Shown here: positions 322 through 9,792 of the stretch, piece by piece
How the letters are laid out: each line of letters starts with the position of its first letter
Numbering within the stretch: the stretch's first letter is position 1
From: Thiohalospira halophila DSM 15071
Lineage (GTDB): Bacteria > Pseudomonadota > Gammaproteobacteria > Thiohalospirales > Thiohalospiraceae
Length of the DNA stretch: 64,000 nucleotides
Direction of reading: 5' to 3'
Assembly: GCF_900112605.1 (NCBI RefSeq)
Contig: NZ_FOMJ01000002.1
Span: forward strand, 62,001-126,000
The notes under the pieces: model-generated
Told to the model about the DNA's origin: nothing
Database searches by the model: none
What the model saw: only the letters and a program-made list of their open reading frames with translations
Translations under genes and position numbers: made by a program

Positions 322-1803
322 TCACGGTAGCACCGCCGCGCGCCAGGCGTCGCCCTGGTCGAGCCAGCCGGCGGCGCTGGCGGCGTACTCGGCCGCCGGG
401 GCCGCGGCCAGGGCCCAGCCGATCACCCCGACCACGAGCAGGGCCGCCGGCGCAAAGGCTGCCCGATCCACCCGGATCCCCGGCTCCGCCTCCGGCTCCA
501 GCCGCCAGAAGACGATGGAGCCGGCCCGTGCGGCGGCGACGATCATCACCAGGCCCGTGGCCAGGACCACGGTCCAGATGGTCGCCTGCCAGGGGTGGTC
601 CGCGGCCGCCTGCAGCAGCAGGACCTTGCCCAGGAAGCCGCCCAGCGGGGGCAGCCCCACCATGCCCACGGCGGCCGTCATGAACAGCAGTCCGGCGCCG
701 CTCCCCAGGACTCCGGCCGGGCCGGCGCCGATGCGGTCCGAGCGGCTGCCGCGCGCCTCGGCGATGAGGCCGGCCAGCAGGAAGAGGGCGCCAGCGGCCC
801 AGGTGGAGTGGACCAGGTAGTAGACGGCGGCGGTGAGGGCGTCGGCCCCGCCGATGCCGATGCCGATGAGCAGCGTCCCTACGGAGGCGATGACCAGCCG
901 CGCGACCAGGGAGGCCAGCCGCGTGGCGCCCAGCGCCCCCAGCGCGCCGTGGGTCAGGGTGATCAGGCCCAGGACCAGGAGGCCGTCCTTCAGCAGCGGG
1001 TCCAGGCTCGCCGGGGCGCCCACGGCATCGGTGAGCCGCAGCAGGGCGTAGATCCCGACCTTAGTCATCACCGCGAACAGCGCCGCCACCGCCGGCGTGG
1101 CGGCGGTGTAGGCGCGGGTGAGCCAGAAGTGCAGCGGGATGAGGGCCGCCTTGAGGCCGAAGACCACCACCAGCAGCAGCACGGCCATGGCCGCCAGGCC
1201 GCCCTCGTCGGGCCCCAGTGTGGCCATGGCGCGGCCGGCGTCGGCCATGTTCAGGGTGCCGAGGCTGGCGTAGACCATGCCCAGGCCGATGAGGAAGACC
1301 GCCGAGCCGGCCAGGTTGAGGATGACGTAGTGGACCGCCGCCCGGCTCCGGCTCCCGCCGCCCCCGTGGATGAGCAGGCCGTAGGAGGCGATGAGGAGGA
1401 TCTCGAAGAAGACGAAGAGGTTGAACAGGTCGCCGGTGAGGAAGGCGCCGTTGAGCCCCATGAGCTGGAACTGGAACAGCGCGTGGAAGTTCAGCCCCCG
1501 ATCGTCATCGCCCCGGCTGGCGTGGAGCAGGGCGGCCAGCCCCAGAACGGCGGTGGTGGCCACCATGATCGCCGCCAGCGGATCGAGGATCAGCAGGATC
1601 CCGAAGGGGGCCGGCCAGTCGCCCAGGGCGTAGGTCATGGGCTCCCGCGCCGCCGGCAGCAGCCAGAAGAGGCTGGCCACCAGGGCCAGGGTGGCGCCGA
1701 TGCCGATGGCGCGCTGGGTGGCGATGTCCCGCGGATGCCAGGCCAGCAGCAGGAGCGCCCCGGCCAGCGGGATGAGGATGGGCGCGATGGGCAGGTGGTT
1801 CAT
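322..1803 (-). CDS. mrpD: Mrp Na+/H+ antiporter subunit D
   Basis: A 493-aa polytopic inner-membrane protein of the NuoN/MrpD proton-translocating family. It is very hydrophobic with about 14 predicted membrane segments. The region around residues 215-240 (FGLKAALIPLHFWLTRAYTA) is the family's conserved lysine/histidine helix thought to carry protons. In the Mrp complex, MrpA and MrpD drive exchange of cytoplasmic Na+ for external H+, which supports pH and salt homeostasis. The start overlaps the mrpC stop by one base, indicating translational coupling. Length matches the family. Confidence 0.93.
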   Translation of the reverse strand: MNHLPIAPILIPLAGALLLLAWHPRDIATQRAIGIGATLALVASLFWLLPAAREPMTYALGDWPAPFGILLILDPLAAIMVATTAVLGLAALLHASRGDDDRGLNFHALFQFQLMGLNGAFLTGDLFNLFVFFEILLIASYGLLIHGGGGSRSRAAVHYVILNLAGSAVFLIGLGMVYASLGTLNMADAGRAMATLGPDEGGLAAMAVLLLVVVFGLKAALIPLHFWLTRAYTAATPAVAALFAVMTKVGIYALLRLTDAVGAPASLDPLLKDGLLVLGLITLTHGALGALGATRLASLVARLVIASVGTLLIGIGIGGADALTAAVYYLVHSTWAAGALFLLAGLIAEARGSRSDRIGAGPAGVLGSGAGLLFMTAAVGMVGLPPLGGFLGKVLLLQAAADHPWQATIWTVVLATGLVMIVAAARAGSIVFWRLEPEAEPGIRVDRAAFAPAALLVVGVIGWALAAAPAAEYAASAAGWLDQGDAWRAAVLP

Positions 1804-2129
1804 CAGTCCTCCTCCCGGCCGTCGACGCGGTCACTGTCGTGGTCGCCGTAGGCGCGAATGGCGAGGATGACCAGGAAGGCGGTCATGCCGAAGCCGATGA
1901 CGATGGCCGTGAGGACCAGCGCCTGGGGCAGCGGGTCGGTGTAGGGGCCGTCGCCGTGGATGAGGGCCGGCGCATCCTCGGTGAGCCGCCCGGCGGCGAA
2001 GAGGAAGAGGTTGACGCCGTAGGAGAGCAGGGTCAGCCCCAGGACCACGGGGAAGGTCCGCCCGCGCAGCATCAGGTAGACGCCGCTGGCGACCAGGCAG
2101 CCGATGGCGATGGCGACGAGGATCTCCAT
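1803..2129 (-). CDS. mrpC: Mrp Na+/H+ antiporter subunit C
   Basis: A 108-aa NuoK/MrpC-type membrane protein with three hydrophobic helices. The motif GVYLMLRGRTFPVVLGL and the segment DPLPQALVLTAIVIGF are family signatures. The ATG at 2129 is chosen over an in-frame upstream start because it follows GCAAGGAGGGCTGAG and begins just after the mrpA/B stop at 2131. Extending upstream would add 16 residues inside mrpA/B that do not resemble the family. It sits in the middle of the operon and is needed for assembly of the antiporter. Confidence 0.92.
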   Translation of the reverse strand: MEILVAIAIGCLVASGVYLMLRGRTFPVVLGLTLLSYGVNLFLFAAGRLTEDAPALIHGDGPYTDPLPQALVLTAIVIGFGMTAFLVILAIRAYGDHDSDRVDGREED

Positions 2130-2130
2130 C

Positions 2131-4935
2131 TCAGCCCTCCTTGCCGATGGTGTGGTGGCCCGGGGCATCCTCGTCACCCAGCCGCCCCAGTTCGGCGAGG
2201 ATGAGCAGGACCGAGGCGATCACCGTGATGAAGACCCCCAGGTCGAAGACCAGGGCCGAGGCCAGCTCGACGTTTTCCCCCCAGGGGAGGTGGACGTGCT
2301 TGAAGGTGCTGGTGAGGAAGGGGTAGCCGAAGGCCCAGGAGGCCAGGCCGGTCCCCGCGGCCAGCACCGCTCCCAGGGCGAACAGGCGGTGGTAGTCCAT
2401 CTCCACCCGCTGGCGGGTCCACTCCAGGCCGTTGGCGAGGTGCTGGAGGATCAGGGCGATGGCCGCCACCAGGCCGGCGATGAAACCGCCACCGGGGGCG
2501 TTGTGGCCGCGCAGGAAGAGATAGACCGCTACCAGTAGCGCCAGCGGCAGCAGGGGGCGCGCCAGCATGGCCAGGAAGAGGGGGTGGCGCTCCTGCGACC
2601 AGGGGCGGCCGCCGGGGCCGGTGGCCGGGACCCGGAGGTGGAGGCCCTGGAGCATGGCGTGGATCCCCAGGGCGGCGATGGCCAGGACCAGGATCTCACC
2701 GAAGGTATCGAAGCCGCGGAAGTCCACCAGGATCACGTTGACCACGTTGTGGCCGCCGCCGCCCGGGACGGCGTTCTCCAGGAAGTAGCCGGAGATGGGC
2801 TCACTGGTGCCGGTGAGGACCGTCAGCGCCGCCAGGGTGGCCGCCACGCCGGCGGCCAGGGCCAGCACGGCGTCCCGGCCCCGCTGCCAGGCCGGGCTCT
2901 CCGGCTCGGTCTCCTGGGGCAGGAAGTAGAGGGCCAGCAGCAGCAGGATGATGGTGACCACCTCCACCGAGAGCTGAGTCAGCGCCAGGTCGGGGGCGGA
3001 GAAGCGCACGAAGAGCAGCGAGACCACCAGCCCGACGATGCCGATGACCACGACGGCCACCAGCCGCCGGCGATGCATTGCCACCGTGGCGGCGGCCCCC
3101 AGCGCCAGCGCCAGCACCGCGGCGATGCCGGCGGCGTCCACCGGCAGCAGCTCGCGGCCGCCGAACAGGGCCGGCGGTTCCAGGGCGACGGCGGCGAGCC
3201 CTGCCGCCACGGCGGCGGTGAAGAAGACGAAGAGGTAGCGCTGCAGGCCGCCGCCGTCGCCGCCGTCGACGATGGTCCGGGCGACGCGGGCGATGCCGTT
3301 GACGGTGGCCTCGAAGGCGGCCTCGCCGTCGCCGTGGGGCATCCGGTCGTAGAGGGCGAAGAGCCGGAAGCGCAGGGCGTAGAGCGTCAGGCCGCCGAGC
3401 ATGGCGATGATGCTCATCAACAGCGGCAGGTTCAGGCCGTGCCAGATCGCCAGACTGTAGTCGGGCAGCCCCGAGGGGACCACGGCCCCGGCGGAGACGG
3501 CCAGCAGCGGGCCAACCACCAGCGCTGGCAGGACACCCACCAGCAGGCAGAGCCCCACCAGGACCTCCACCGGGATCTTCATCCAGCGCGGCGGCTCGTG
3601 GGGGGTGCGGTCCAGGTTGATGGGCTCGCCGTTGAAGAAGACGTCGTGGATGAAGCGCAGGGAGTAGGCCATGGAGAAGATCCCGGCGGCGGTGGCCACC
3701 ACCGGCAGGACCCAGGCCCATCCGCCCAGCCACTGCTGGTGGAGGGTCTCGGCGAAGAACATCTCCTTGGAGAGGAAGCCGTTGAGCAGCGGCACCCCGG
3801 CCATGGCCAGCGCCGCCACCATGGCCAGCACCGCGGTGTGCGGCATGTAGCGGAACAGGCCGTTGATCCGGCGCATGTCCCGGCTGCCGGTCTCGTGGTC
3901 GATGATCCCGGCGGCCATGAACAGCGAGGCCTTGAAGGTGGCGTGGTTGATGATGTGGAAGACGCCGGCCACGGCGCCCAGGGGTGTGCCGAAGCCGAAC
4001 AGCAGGGTGATGAGCCCCAGGTGGCTGATGGTGGAGTAGGCCAGCAACCCCTTGATGTCGTGCTGGAAGATGGCCGTGAAGGCGGCGTAGGTGAAGGTGA
4101 GCAGGCCCGCCCCGCCCACCAGGAAGAACCAGGTATCGGTCCCGGCCAGTGCCGGGTGCAGCCGCGCCAGCAGGAAGACGCCGGCCTTCACCATGGTCGC
4201 CGAGTGGAGGTAGGCGGAGACCGGGGTGGGCGCGGCCATGGCGCGCGGCAGCCAGAAGTGGAAGGGGAACTGCGCCGACTTGGTGAAGACCCCCAGCAGG
4301 ACCAGTAGCAGCGCCGGGATGTAGAGGTCGTGACCGCGGATGAGGTGGCCGGCGGCGATGACCGTGGAGAGGTCGTAGCTCCCCACCATCTCGCCCAGCA
4401 GCAGGATCCCGCCCAGCAGGGCCAGCCCGCCCGCCCCGGTGACGGTCAGCGCCATGCGCGCGGATCGCCGGGCGTGGTAGTCGCCGTGGTAGTAGCTGAT
4501 GAGGAAGAACGAACTGAGGCTGGTGAGCTCCCAGAAGACCAGCATCACCAGCAGGTTCTCCGAGAGGACCACGCCGAGCATGGCCCCCATGAAGACCAGC
4601 AGGAGGGTGTAGAAGCGACCCAGGGGCCGATCCGCCGGCAGGTAGTAGCGGGCGTAGAGGACCACCAGCAGGCCGATGCCCAGGATCAGGGTGGTGAAGA
4701 GCAGGCCCAGCCCGTCCATGCGCAGGGCCAGCTCCAGCCCCGCCGCCGGTAGCCACTGCCAGCGCTCGACAATGACCTCGCCGGCAAAGACCCGGCCCCA
4801 GAGGCCGGAGAGCAGGACAAGGCCGGCCACGGCCGTGGCGCCCGCCAGCCAGGCCGGCCAGAGCCGGCCGGCGCGGGCGAAGAGGAAGGGTAGCAGCGCG
4901 CCCAGGAAGGGGGACGCTACCAGTGCCAGCAACAT
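2131..4935 (-). CDS. mrpA: Mrp Na+/H+ antiporter subunit A fused to subunit B
   Basis: A 934-aa fusion. Roughly residues 1-600 are the NuoL-like antiporter core, with conserved helices such as FPFHFWLPRAMAAPTPVSAY. About 620-690 is the MbhD/DUF4040 part (SAPDLALTQLSVEVVTIIL). About 700-770 is MbhE-like, and about 785-934 is a full MrpB domain with its hallmark PGGGFIAGL. A-B fusions are known in proteobacterial Mrp loci. This is the first gene of the operon; A/B, C, D and E follow, and F and G are expected beyond the window. The presumed role is Na+ extrusion and pH homeostasis in saline or alkaline conditions. The ribosome-binding site before the ATG is weak. Confidence 0.93.
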   Translation of the reverse strand: MLLALVASPFLGALLPFLFARAGRLWPAWLAGATAVAGLVLLSGLWGRVFAGEVIVERWQWLPAAGLELALRMDGLGLLFTTLILGIGLLVVLYARYYLPADRPLGRFYTLLLVFMGAMLGVVLSENLLVMLVFWELTSLSSFFLISYYHGDYHARRSARMALTVTGAGGLALLGGILLLGEMVGSYDLSTVIAAGHLIRGHDLYIPALLLVLLGVFTKSAQFPFHFWLPRAMAAPTPVSAYLHSATMVKAGVFLLARLHPALAGTDTWFFLVGGAGLLTFTYAAFTAIFQHDIKGLLAYSTISHLGLITLLFGFGTPLGAVAGVFHIINHATFKASLFMAAGIIDHETGSRDMRRINGLFRYMPHTAVLAMVAALAMAGVPLLNGFLSKEMFFAETLHQQWLGGWAWVLPVVATAAGIFSMAYSLRFIHDVFFNGEPINLDRTPHEPPRWMKIPVEVLVGLCLLVGVLPALVVGPLLAVSAGAVVPSGLPDYSLAIWHGLNLPLLMSIIAMLGGLTLYALRFRLFALYDRMPHGDGEAAFEATVNGIARVARTIVDGGDGGGLQRYLFVFFTAAVAAGLAAVALEPPALFGGRELLPVDAAGIAAVLALALGAAATVAMHRRRLVAVVVIGIVGLVVSLLFVRFSAPDLALTQLSVEVVTIILLLLALYFLPQETEPESPAWQRGRDAVLALAAGVAATLAALTVLTGTSEPISGYFLENAVPGGGGHNVVNVILVDFRGFDTFGEILVLAIAALGIHAMLQGLHLRVPATGPGGRPWSQERHPLFLAMLARPLLPLALLVAVYLFLRGHNAPGGGFIAGLVAAIALILQHLANGLEWTRQRVEMDYHRLFALGAVLAAGTGLASWAFGYPFLTSTFKHVHLPWGENVELASALVFDLGVFITVIASVLLILAELGRLGDEDAPGHHTIGKEG

Positions 4936-7603: not shown

Positions 7604-7674
7604 TCATGGGCAATGTCCCGCCAGCCTGCTAACGTGACACTCGTTGATCAGACGGGTGGGGGAGTGTGCAAGCC

Positions 7675-9303
7675 ATGGGCAGGTTGGTCTCGTATTTCCA
7701 CAACGTCCGGATCTGGGTCCGCCTCGGCGTCCTGATCTGGCTCCTGCTGGCCGTGGCCTGGTCCGGGATGATCGTCTGGGCCGCCTTCGAACAGCGCGAT
7801 ACGGCGGTGGAGCAGGCCGAGGGCTTTGCACGGAGTCTCCACCAGAGCACCCTCGCCGGGCTGACCACCCTCATGATCACCGGCCAGATGGGCCAGAGGG
7901 ACCACTACCTGGAGCAGGTCCAGGAACTGGGCTCCATCCGGGATCTGCGGGTACTGCGAGGGGATGGCGTGGCCCGCCAGTACGGCGAGGGCAAGGCCAA
8001 CGAGCAGCCCCGGGACGGGATCGAGCGGGAGGTCCTGGAAAGCGGTGAGTCCTGGATCGCCGAGGTCGATGGCGGTGCCAGCCTGCGAGCGGTGATCCCC
8101 GCCTACAACCGCGAGGACTACCTCGGCAAGGACTGCACCATGTGCCATACCCAGGCCGAGGAGGGGGAGGTTCTCGGGGCGGTGGCCATGCGCATGGACC
8201 TCTCCGGCGTGAACGGGGCCGTCTTCGACTTCACGCGGAACATCTTCGTGGTCGCCATCCTCATCAGCCTTCCGCTCATCGCGGCGGTCTGGTTCTTCAT
8301 TACCCGCTTCGTTACCAACCCCCTCAAGGACATGACCCGGGGCATGGACGAGATCGCCTCCGGCGAGGGCGATCTGACCCACCGGCTACCGGTGCGGGGC
8401 AAGGACGAGATCGGGGAGGCCTCGGCGGCCTTCAACCGGGTCATGGAGACCTTCCGCGACCTGGTCTCCCGGGTGACCACGGCAGTGGAGCGGCTGGGCT
8501 CCGCCTCCGACGAGCTGGGCCACGCCGCCCATTCCACCCAGGAGACCGGGAGCAAGCAGCGCACCCAGACCGACCAGGCGGCCACCGCCACCACCGAGAT
8601 GACCAGCTCCGTTCAGGAGGTGGCGCGGAACGCCCAGCAGGCCGCGGATGCGGCCAATCAGGCCAACACCAACGCCAACCAGGGTGCGGAGACCGTGCGC
8701 GAGACGGTCCAGCGCATCGAAGGGCTGGCCGACGAGGTCCGCAAGGGGGCCGAGGCCATCTCCGATCTGGAGGCCAAGAGTACCGACATTGGCCGGGTCA
8801 TGGAGATGATCCGGGAGATCGCCGAGCAGACCAACCTCCTGGCCCTCAACGCCGCCATCGAGGCGGCGCGGGCCGGGGAGGCCGGTCGCGGGTTTGCGGT
8901 GGTCGCCGACGAGGTGCGCAATCTCGCCCAGCGCAGCGAGCAGTCCACCCACGAGATCGATGGCCACGTGGCGGCGCTGCAGAGCGGGATCCGTGAGGCC
9001 GTGGGGGTCATGGAGGAATCCCGGCAGCAGGCGACCAGCACGGTGGAGCAGGCCGAGGCCGCCGGGGAGGCCCTGCGCTCCATTACCGAGTCGGTGGCCA
9101 CCATCTCCGACATGAATACCCAGATCGCCTCCGCCGCCGAGGAGCAGAGCGCGGTGGCCGAGGAGATCAACCAGAACGTCTCCACCATCAACGACACCGC
9201 CGACGAGAACGCCTCCCACGCCCAGCGCAGCAGCGAGGCCGGGGAAGAGCTGGCCCGGATCACCCACGAGCTGCAGGAACTGGTGGGCCGCTTCCGCATC
9301 TAA
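7675..9303 (+). CDS. Methyl-accepting chemotaxis protein with periplasmic c-haem motif
   Basis: A 542-aa chemoreceptor. It has a membrane segment at ~17-37, a periplasmic sensor at ~38-190, a second membrane segment at ~190-212, HAMP at ~213-265 (ITNPL-like [11 protein letters not shown]), and a signalling domain with the hairpin tip [19 protein letters not shown]. The sensor contains CTMCH at residues 154-158 (8134-8148), the CxxCH motif for covalent c-type haem. Haem-c sensor chemoreceptors are known in Geobacter and Desulfovibrio and sense redox or oxygen. There is no C-terminal pentapeptide for CheR binding. The ATG at 7675 is ten bases after GGGGGAG; a GTG at 7666 is an alternative but too close to it. 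Confidence 0.93.
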
Positions 9304-9309
9304 ACCGGC

Positions 9310-9792
9310 ATGCTCGACGCCATTCGCCGATTCTTCGACGACCGCCTCGCCCCTGCCGGGGGGGAGGCAGGGGATGACGACCACCGCCTGAAGCTGGCCA
9401 CGGCGGCCCTGTTGCTGGAGGTGGGGCGGGTGGATGGTCTGCGCGACGACGAGGAGCTGGCGGCCACCCGCCAGGCCCTGGGCGACGTCTTCGGCCTCTC
9501 GGACGCCGAGACCGAGGAGTTGATGCGCCTGGCCGATACCGAGGCGCGCGAGGCCAGCTCCGACCACGACTTCACCCGGCTCATCCACGCTGCCTACGGC
9601 CCCGAGGAGAAGAGCGCGGTGCTGGAGCGGATGTGGCGGGTGGCGTGGGCCGATGGCGTCATCGACCCCTACGAGGAGCAGATGCTGCGCAAGGTGGCCG
9701 ACCTGCTCTACCTCCCCCATGCCGCCTATATCGAGGCCAAGCTCCGCGCCGCCGAGGCCATGGGCGTGGAGCCCCCCGAGGCTACTCGGTAA
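9310..9792 (+). CDS. TerB-family tellurite-resistance-like protein
   Basis: A 160-aa all-helical cytoplasmic protein of the TerB/DjlA-N superfamily. Two copies of the family's acidic helix pattern are visible: LLLEVGRVDGLRDDEELA near residue 40 and MWRVAWADGVIDPYEEQML near 120. These sites are thought to bind metal. It starts 6 bp after the chemoreceptor stop and is probably cotranscribed with it. Its last 11 bp overlap the convergent transpeptidase gene. Actual tellurite resistance is not implied; the biochemical role of lone TerB proteins is unclear. Confidence 0.82.
   Translation: MLDAIRRFFDDRLAPAGGEAGDDDHRLKLATAALLLEVGRVDGLRDDEELAATRQALGDVFGLSDAETEELMRLADTEAREASSDHDFTRLIHAAYGPEEKSAVLERMWRVAWADGVIDPYEEQMLRKVADLLYLPHAAYIEAKLRAAEAMGVEPPEATR

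Follow-up and report, generated by a model that had tools for sequence, protein, structure and literature searches.

In the window analysed here, a stretch of 64,000 nucleotides of the Thiohalospira halophila DSM 15071 genome, one open reading frame encodes a protein of 542 residues in which two hydrophobic helices flank a sensor domain (Table 1), an arrangement already proposed in a sequence-only reading of this DNA and borne out by our hydropathy analysis. The HAMP and MCP signalling domains identify the product as a methyl-accepting chemotaxis protein (MCP); because both come after the second helix, the CTMCH motif of the sensor domain lies on the periplasmic side, where it had been placed before. 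The protein has only two cysteines, both within this CxxCH motif, and the chance expectation of such a motif per 150 residues is about 4e-5 with the protein's own composition, and 8e-4 with that of the long open reading frames of the window. A promoter and terminator scan gave no signal above chance.

Table 1. Features of the receptor gene, with positions in the window.
Feature	Residues	Position	Strand	Basis
c-haem chemoreceptor (MCP)	542 aa	7675..9303	+	ORF and Pfam; alternative GTG start at 7666
First transmembrane helix	about 13-36	7711..7782	+	hydropathy
Periplasmic sCache-haem sensor domain	37-187	7783..8235	+	PF21563, PDB profile matches, AlphaFold2, Foldseek
Met67, predicted sixth haem ligand	67	7873..7875	+	alignment to 3b47/3b42; invariant (59/59)
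Arg95, first residue of signature RGxxVxxQ[FY]GxG	95	7957..7959	+	invariant; no counterpart in the Geobacter pair
CTMCH haem-attachment motif (C154, C157, proximal ligand H158)	154-158	8134..8148	+	sequence
Second transmembrane helix	about 188-211	8236..8307	+	hydropathy
HAMP domain	208-259	8296..8451	+	PF00672, 5.2e-14
MCP signalling domain	324-507	8644..9195	+	PF00015, 4.4e-48

Two further features to which the sequence-only reading had drawn attention are present and add nothing to the interpretation. A TerB protein (PF05099, 5.1e-31) is encoded at 9310-9792 on the + strand, starting 7 bases past the receptor stop codon and possibly co-transcribed with it; we rejected it as a functional partner, since none was found in the roughly 4 kb around the close relatives in loci L009-L013, and no conserved gene neighbourhood was seen among the relatives' neighbours scanned. 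Likewise, the receptor C-terminus has no CheR-binding pentapeptide, and this is ordinary, as the two other MCP C-termini examined in the genome lack it too.

Sensor fold, family and distribution

The sensor domain passes the PF21563 (Mcp40H-20_sensor) cut-off of 27 bits narrowly, with 27.5 bits for the whole protein and 29.7 for the domain alone. A Pfam search gave no match of the receptor to PF11845 (Tll0287-like) at E up to 1, and we therefore do not place it in PF11845 itself; a comparison of profiles built from 59 relatives of the receptor and from 31 Tll0287-like members nevertheless gave a probability of 97.5% across the domain's C-terminal half. With the profile of the 59-sequence alignment, the best solved relatives were the Geobacter sulfurreducens sensors GSU0582 (3b47, 7.2e-6) and GSU0935 (3b42, 1.2e-4). 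Furthermore, an AlphaFold2 model of the monomer, computed from 31 sequences, was confident (mean pLDDT 93.1, pTM 0.86), and its best PDB match in Foldseek was again 3b42 (5.8e-6), with a low identity of 19%, a TM-score of 0.37-0.46 and a large rmsd; the modest TM-score and the rmsd may come from the domain-swapped dimers in the Geobacter crystals. Structure prediction, proposed earlier as a way to look for a PAS-like pocket, thus returned a well-defined sensor fold, but one that is now called Cache and not PAS. Taken together, the alignment, the model and the Foldseek matches show a conserved CxxCH within a Cache fold, and the receptor sensor accordingly joins the sCache_heme class as a new member (DUF3365, Tll0287-like; PF11845), in which, as in the receptor, the CxxCH is inserted before the last strand (PMC12889525). 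A 2026 preprint has already described this class and its Cache fold, and shows that it is widespread and occurs fused to MCPs (PMC12889525).

Relatives were gathered in two ways. Six came from a contig search with six seed peptides, one of which contains the CxxCH, so that this sample is biased; it gave the nearest named sensor relatives, in Thiorhodococcus, Imhoffiella, Sulfuricella, Hydrogenophilus and Giesbergeria. Further relatives came from searches not seeded with the motif, which covered 95 near genomes and a sample of 398 from the phylum; here the best matches alone were read. Of the 398 phylum genomes sampled, 76 contained a relative with E no greater than 1e-10, and the preprint reports thousands of class members (PMC12889525); the earlier view of c-haem chemoreceptor sensors as a rarity consequently does not hold, this sensor type having been described before in Geobacter and occurring widely among proteobacteria. 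Among the relatives scanned, the outputs fused to the sensor include MCP, HD, GGDEF-EAL, and MCP together with PilZ. The last of these was found in a Hydrogenophilus MAG (L012, 3914-5908, + strand), where the PilZ domain is C-terminal to the MCP domain, which suggests a link to cyclic-di-GMP.

Other candidate haem sensors are encoded in the T. halophila genome. A second c-haem MCP has a Tll0287-like sensor with CLNCH (L004, G000:C2:22755-26942, 886-2688, + strand), and Geobacter likewise has two such receptors. A stand-alone Tll0287-like c-haem protein (L015, G000:C1:404470-407964) has a cysteine in a VCNEAAP stretch, which fits Cys/His ligation. Finally, a GGDEF-EAL protein (L042, G000:C2:272467-275733, 1177-3267, + strand) carries an N-terminal sensor with CLRCH, a weak match and a distant relative of the receptor's sensor.

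Predicted haem attachment and axial ligands

In the alignment of the 59 relatives (A3), residues M67, R95, G104, P142, C154, C157, H158 and G168 are invariant. Loss of the CxxCH among orthologues had been named beforehand as an observation that would speak against haem; its retention in all aligned relatives favours the c-haem reading. One apparent orthologue devoid of the motif (L040, 1489-2058, + strand) was rejected and left out of the alignment: its sensor frame lacks the haem segment and continues directly into HD-domain-like sequence, which suggests either an internal deletion or a faulty assembly.

GSU0582 and GSU0935 share with the receptor a periplasmic domain between two helices, a HAMP domain, an MCP domain and a single CxxCH. 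In the profile alignment, their CxxCH aligns with C154-H158 and their distal Met60, a haem ligand in both proteins (PMC8396549), matches Met67; the correspondence follows from the numbering of His143 (GSU0582) and His144 (GSU0935) in that study, with a chain offset of 34 in both. Met67 is thus the predicted sixth ligand in the receptor's group, whereas stand-alone Tll0287 proteins use a cysteine. In contrast, neither Arg95 nor the RGxxVxxQ[FY]GxG signature occurs in the Geobacter pair, so that the pocket and the ligand may differ in the receptor. It is possible, if doubtful, that the domain belongs to a c-haem Cache subfamily marked by the invariant Met, the Arg and this signature, in which the Arg could sit along the haem pocket and confer a ligand preference unlike that of the Geobacter pair. 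This putative Met/Arg subfamily is the less familiar point of our analysis, and it is largely missed by Pfam models: at E up to 0.01, PF21563 matches 14 of the 59 members and PF11845 matches 7, which leaves at most 21 matched by either.

As to how the haem would be attached, maturation by Ccm, assumed in the sequence-only reading, does not agree with the genome: CcmE was not found by a search that recovers it in E. coli, and ResB and CcsB are present in adjacent genes. The organism thus appears to mature its c-haem by System II (ResB/CcsB), which is expected to attach the haem of the receptor. A CxxCH devoid of haem, with the cysteines forming a disulphide or binding a metal, is hardly credible, since among the 59 relatives the proximal His and distal Met are conserved without exception, just like the cysteines, the close structural relatives carry c-haem, and an attachment system is encoded. 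Conservation of the motif and of the sixth ligand, the fold, and the homology to GSU0582 and GSU0935 therefore best support a chemoreceptor with a covalent c-haem, as originally suggested.

The sensed signal

In the Geobacter pair, with midpoint potentials of -156 and -251 mV, the haem is largely high-spin, with water bound, in its oxidised state and low-spin, with Met60 bound, in its reduced state, and both CO and NO displace Met60 (PMC8396549). By analogy, our receptor would most likely signal when Met67 leaves the iron. In the mechanism that we propose, the periplasmic single-Cache domain would hold one c-type haem covalently through C154 and C157, with H158 as the proximal ligand and Met67 as an exchangeable sixth ligand; oxidation of the haem by the surroundings, or displacement of Met67 by NO or CO, would move the helix bearing Met67, and this movement would pass through the second transmembrane helix and the HAMP domain to the signalling tip and alter CheA activity, so that the cell would steer along a redox gradient, or respond to NO. 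CheW-domain matches occur at eleven places in the genome. We consider it probable that the receptor is of this kind, namely a c-haem receptor with a Met67 switch that steers cells along a redox gradient or responds to NO.

Redox potential, oxygen and NO had all been put forward as signals. We give redox a slight preference over NO, chiefly because the searches turned up no NO-producing enzyme and also because a cbb3-type oxidase is the only oxidase found. Family searches found neither NirS nor NirK in the genome; NorB was not found either, the sole strong COX1 match being CcoN of the cbb3 oxidase and the COX1 matches including nothing NorB-like beyond a single weak, short one (each of these absences comes from one family search of a draft genome with an estimated completeness of 99.99%). 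Nitric oxide as the physiological signal of the same c-haem receptor is rather unlikely, although it has precedents: a related class member linked to HAMP behaves as an NO sensor, letting go of NO slowly and giving no stable complex with O2 (PMC12889525), and in Geobacter the sensors bind NO whether oxidised or reduced (PMC8396549). The missing NirS, NirK and NorB make self-made NO from denitrification unlikely, even if neighbours could supply it, and the Geobacter pair has been argued to be redox sensors.

Direct sensing of oxygen, with O2 binding the haem iron, would suit a periplasmic haem in a cell with a cbb3-type oxidase, and DcrA of Desulfovibrio vulgaris has been described as sensing oxygen or redox potential. 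DcrA, as described, is likewise a chemoreceptor with a periplasmic c-haem, but it carries a cytoplasmic PAS domain as well (PMC8396549), which the receptor does not. By analogy with two tested members of the class, which showed no stable oxy complex and instead oxidised and yielded superoxide (PMC12889525), direct O2 sensing is very improbable here; moreover, the sixth site of the reduced haem is predicted to be filled by Met67.

The covalent c-haem receptor favoured here, slightly more as a redox than as an NO sensor, is a further c-haem chemoreceptor, this one in a proteobacterium that apparently makes its c-haem via System II, and it draws attention to a populous branch of haem sensors largely overlooked by current Pfam models. 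If the ligand switch is true, it would help to decide between redox potential and NO as the signal of the class members linked to signalling outputs.
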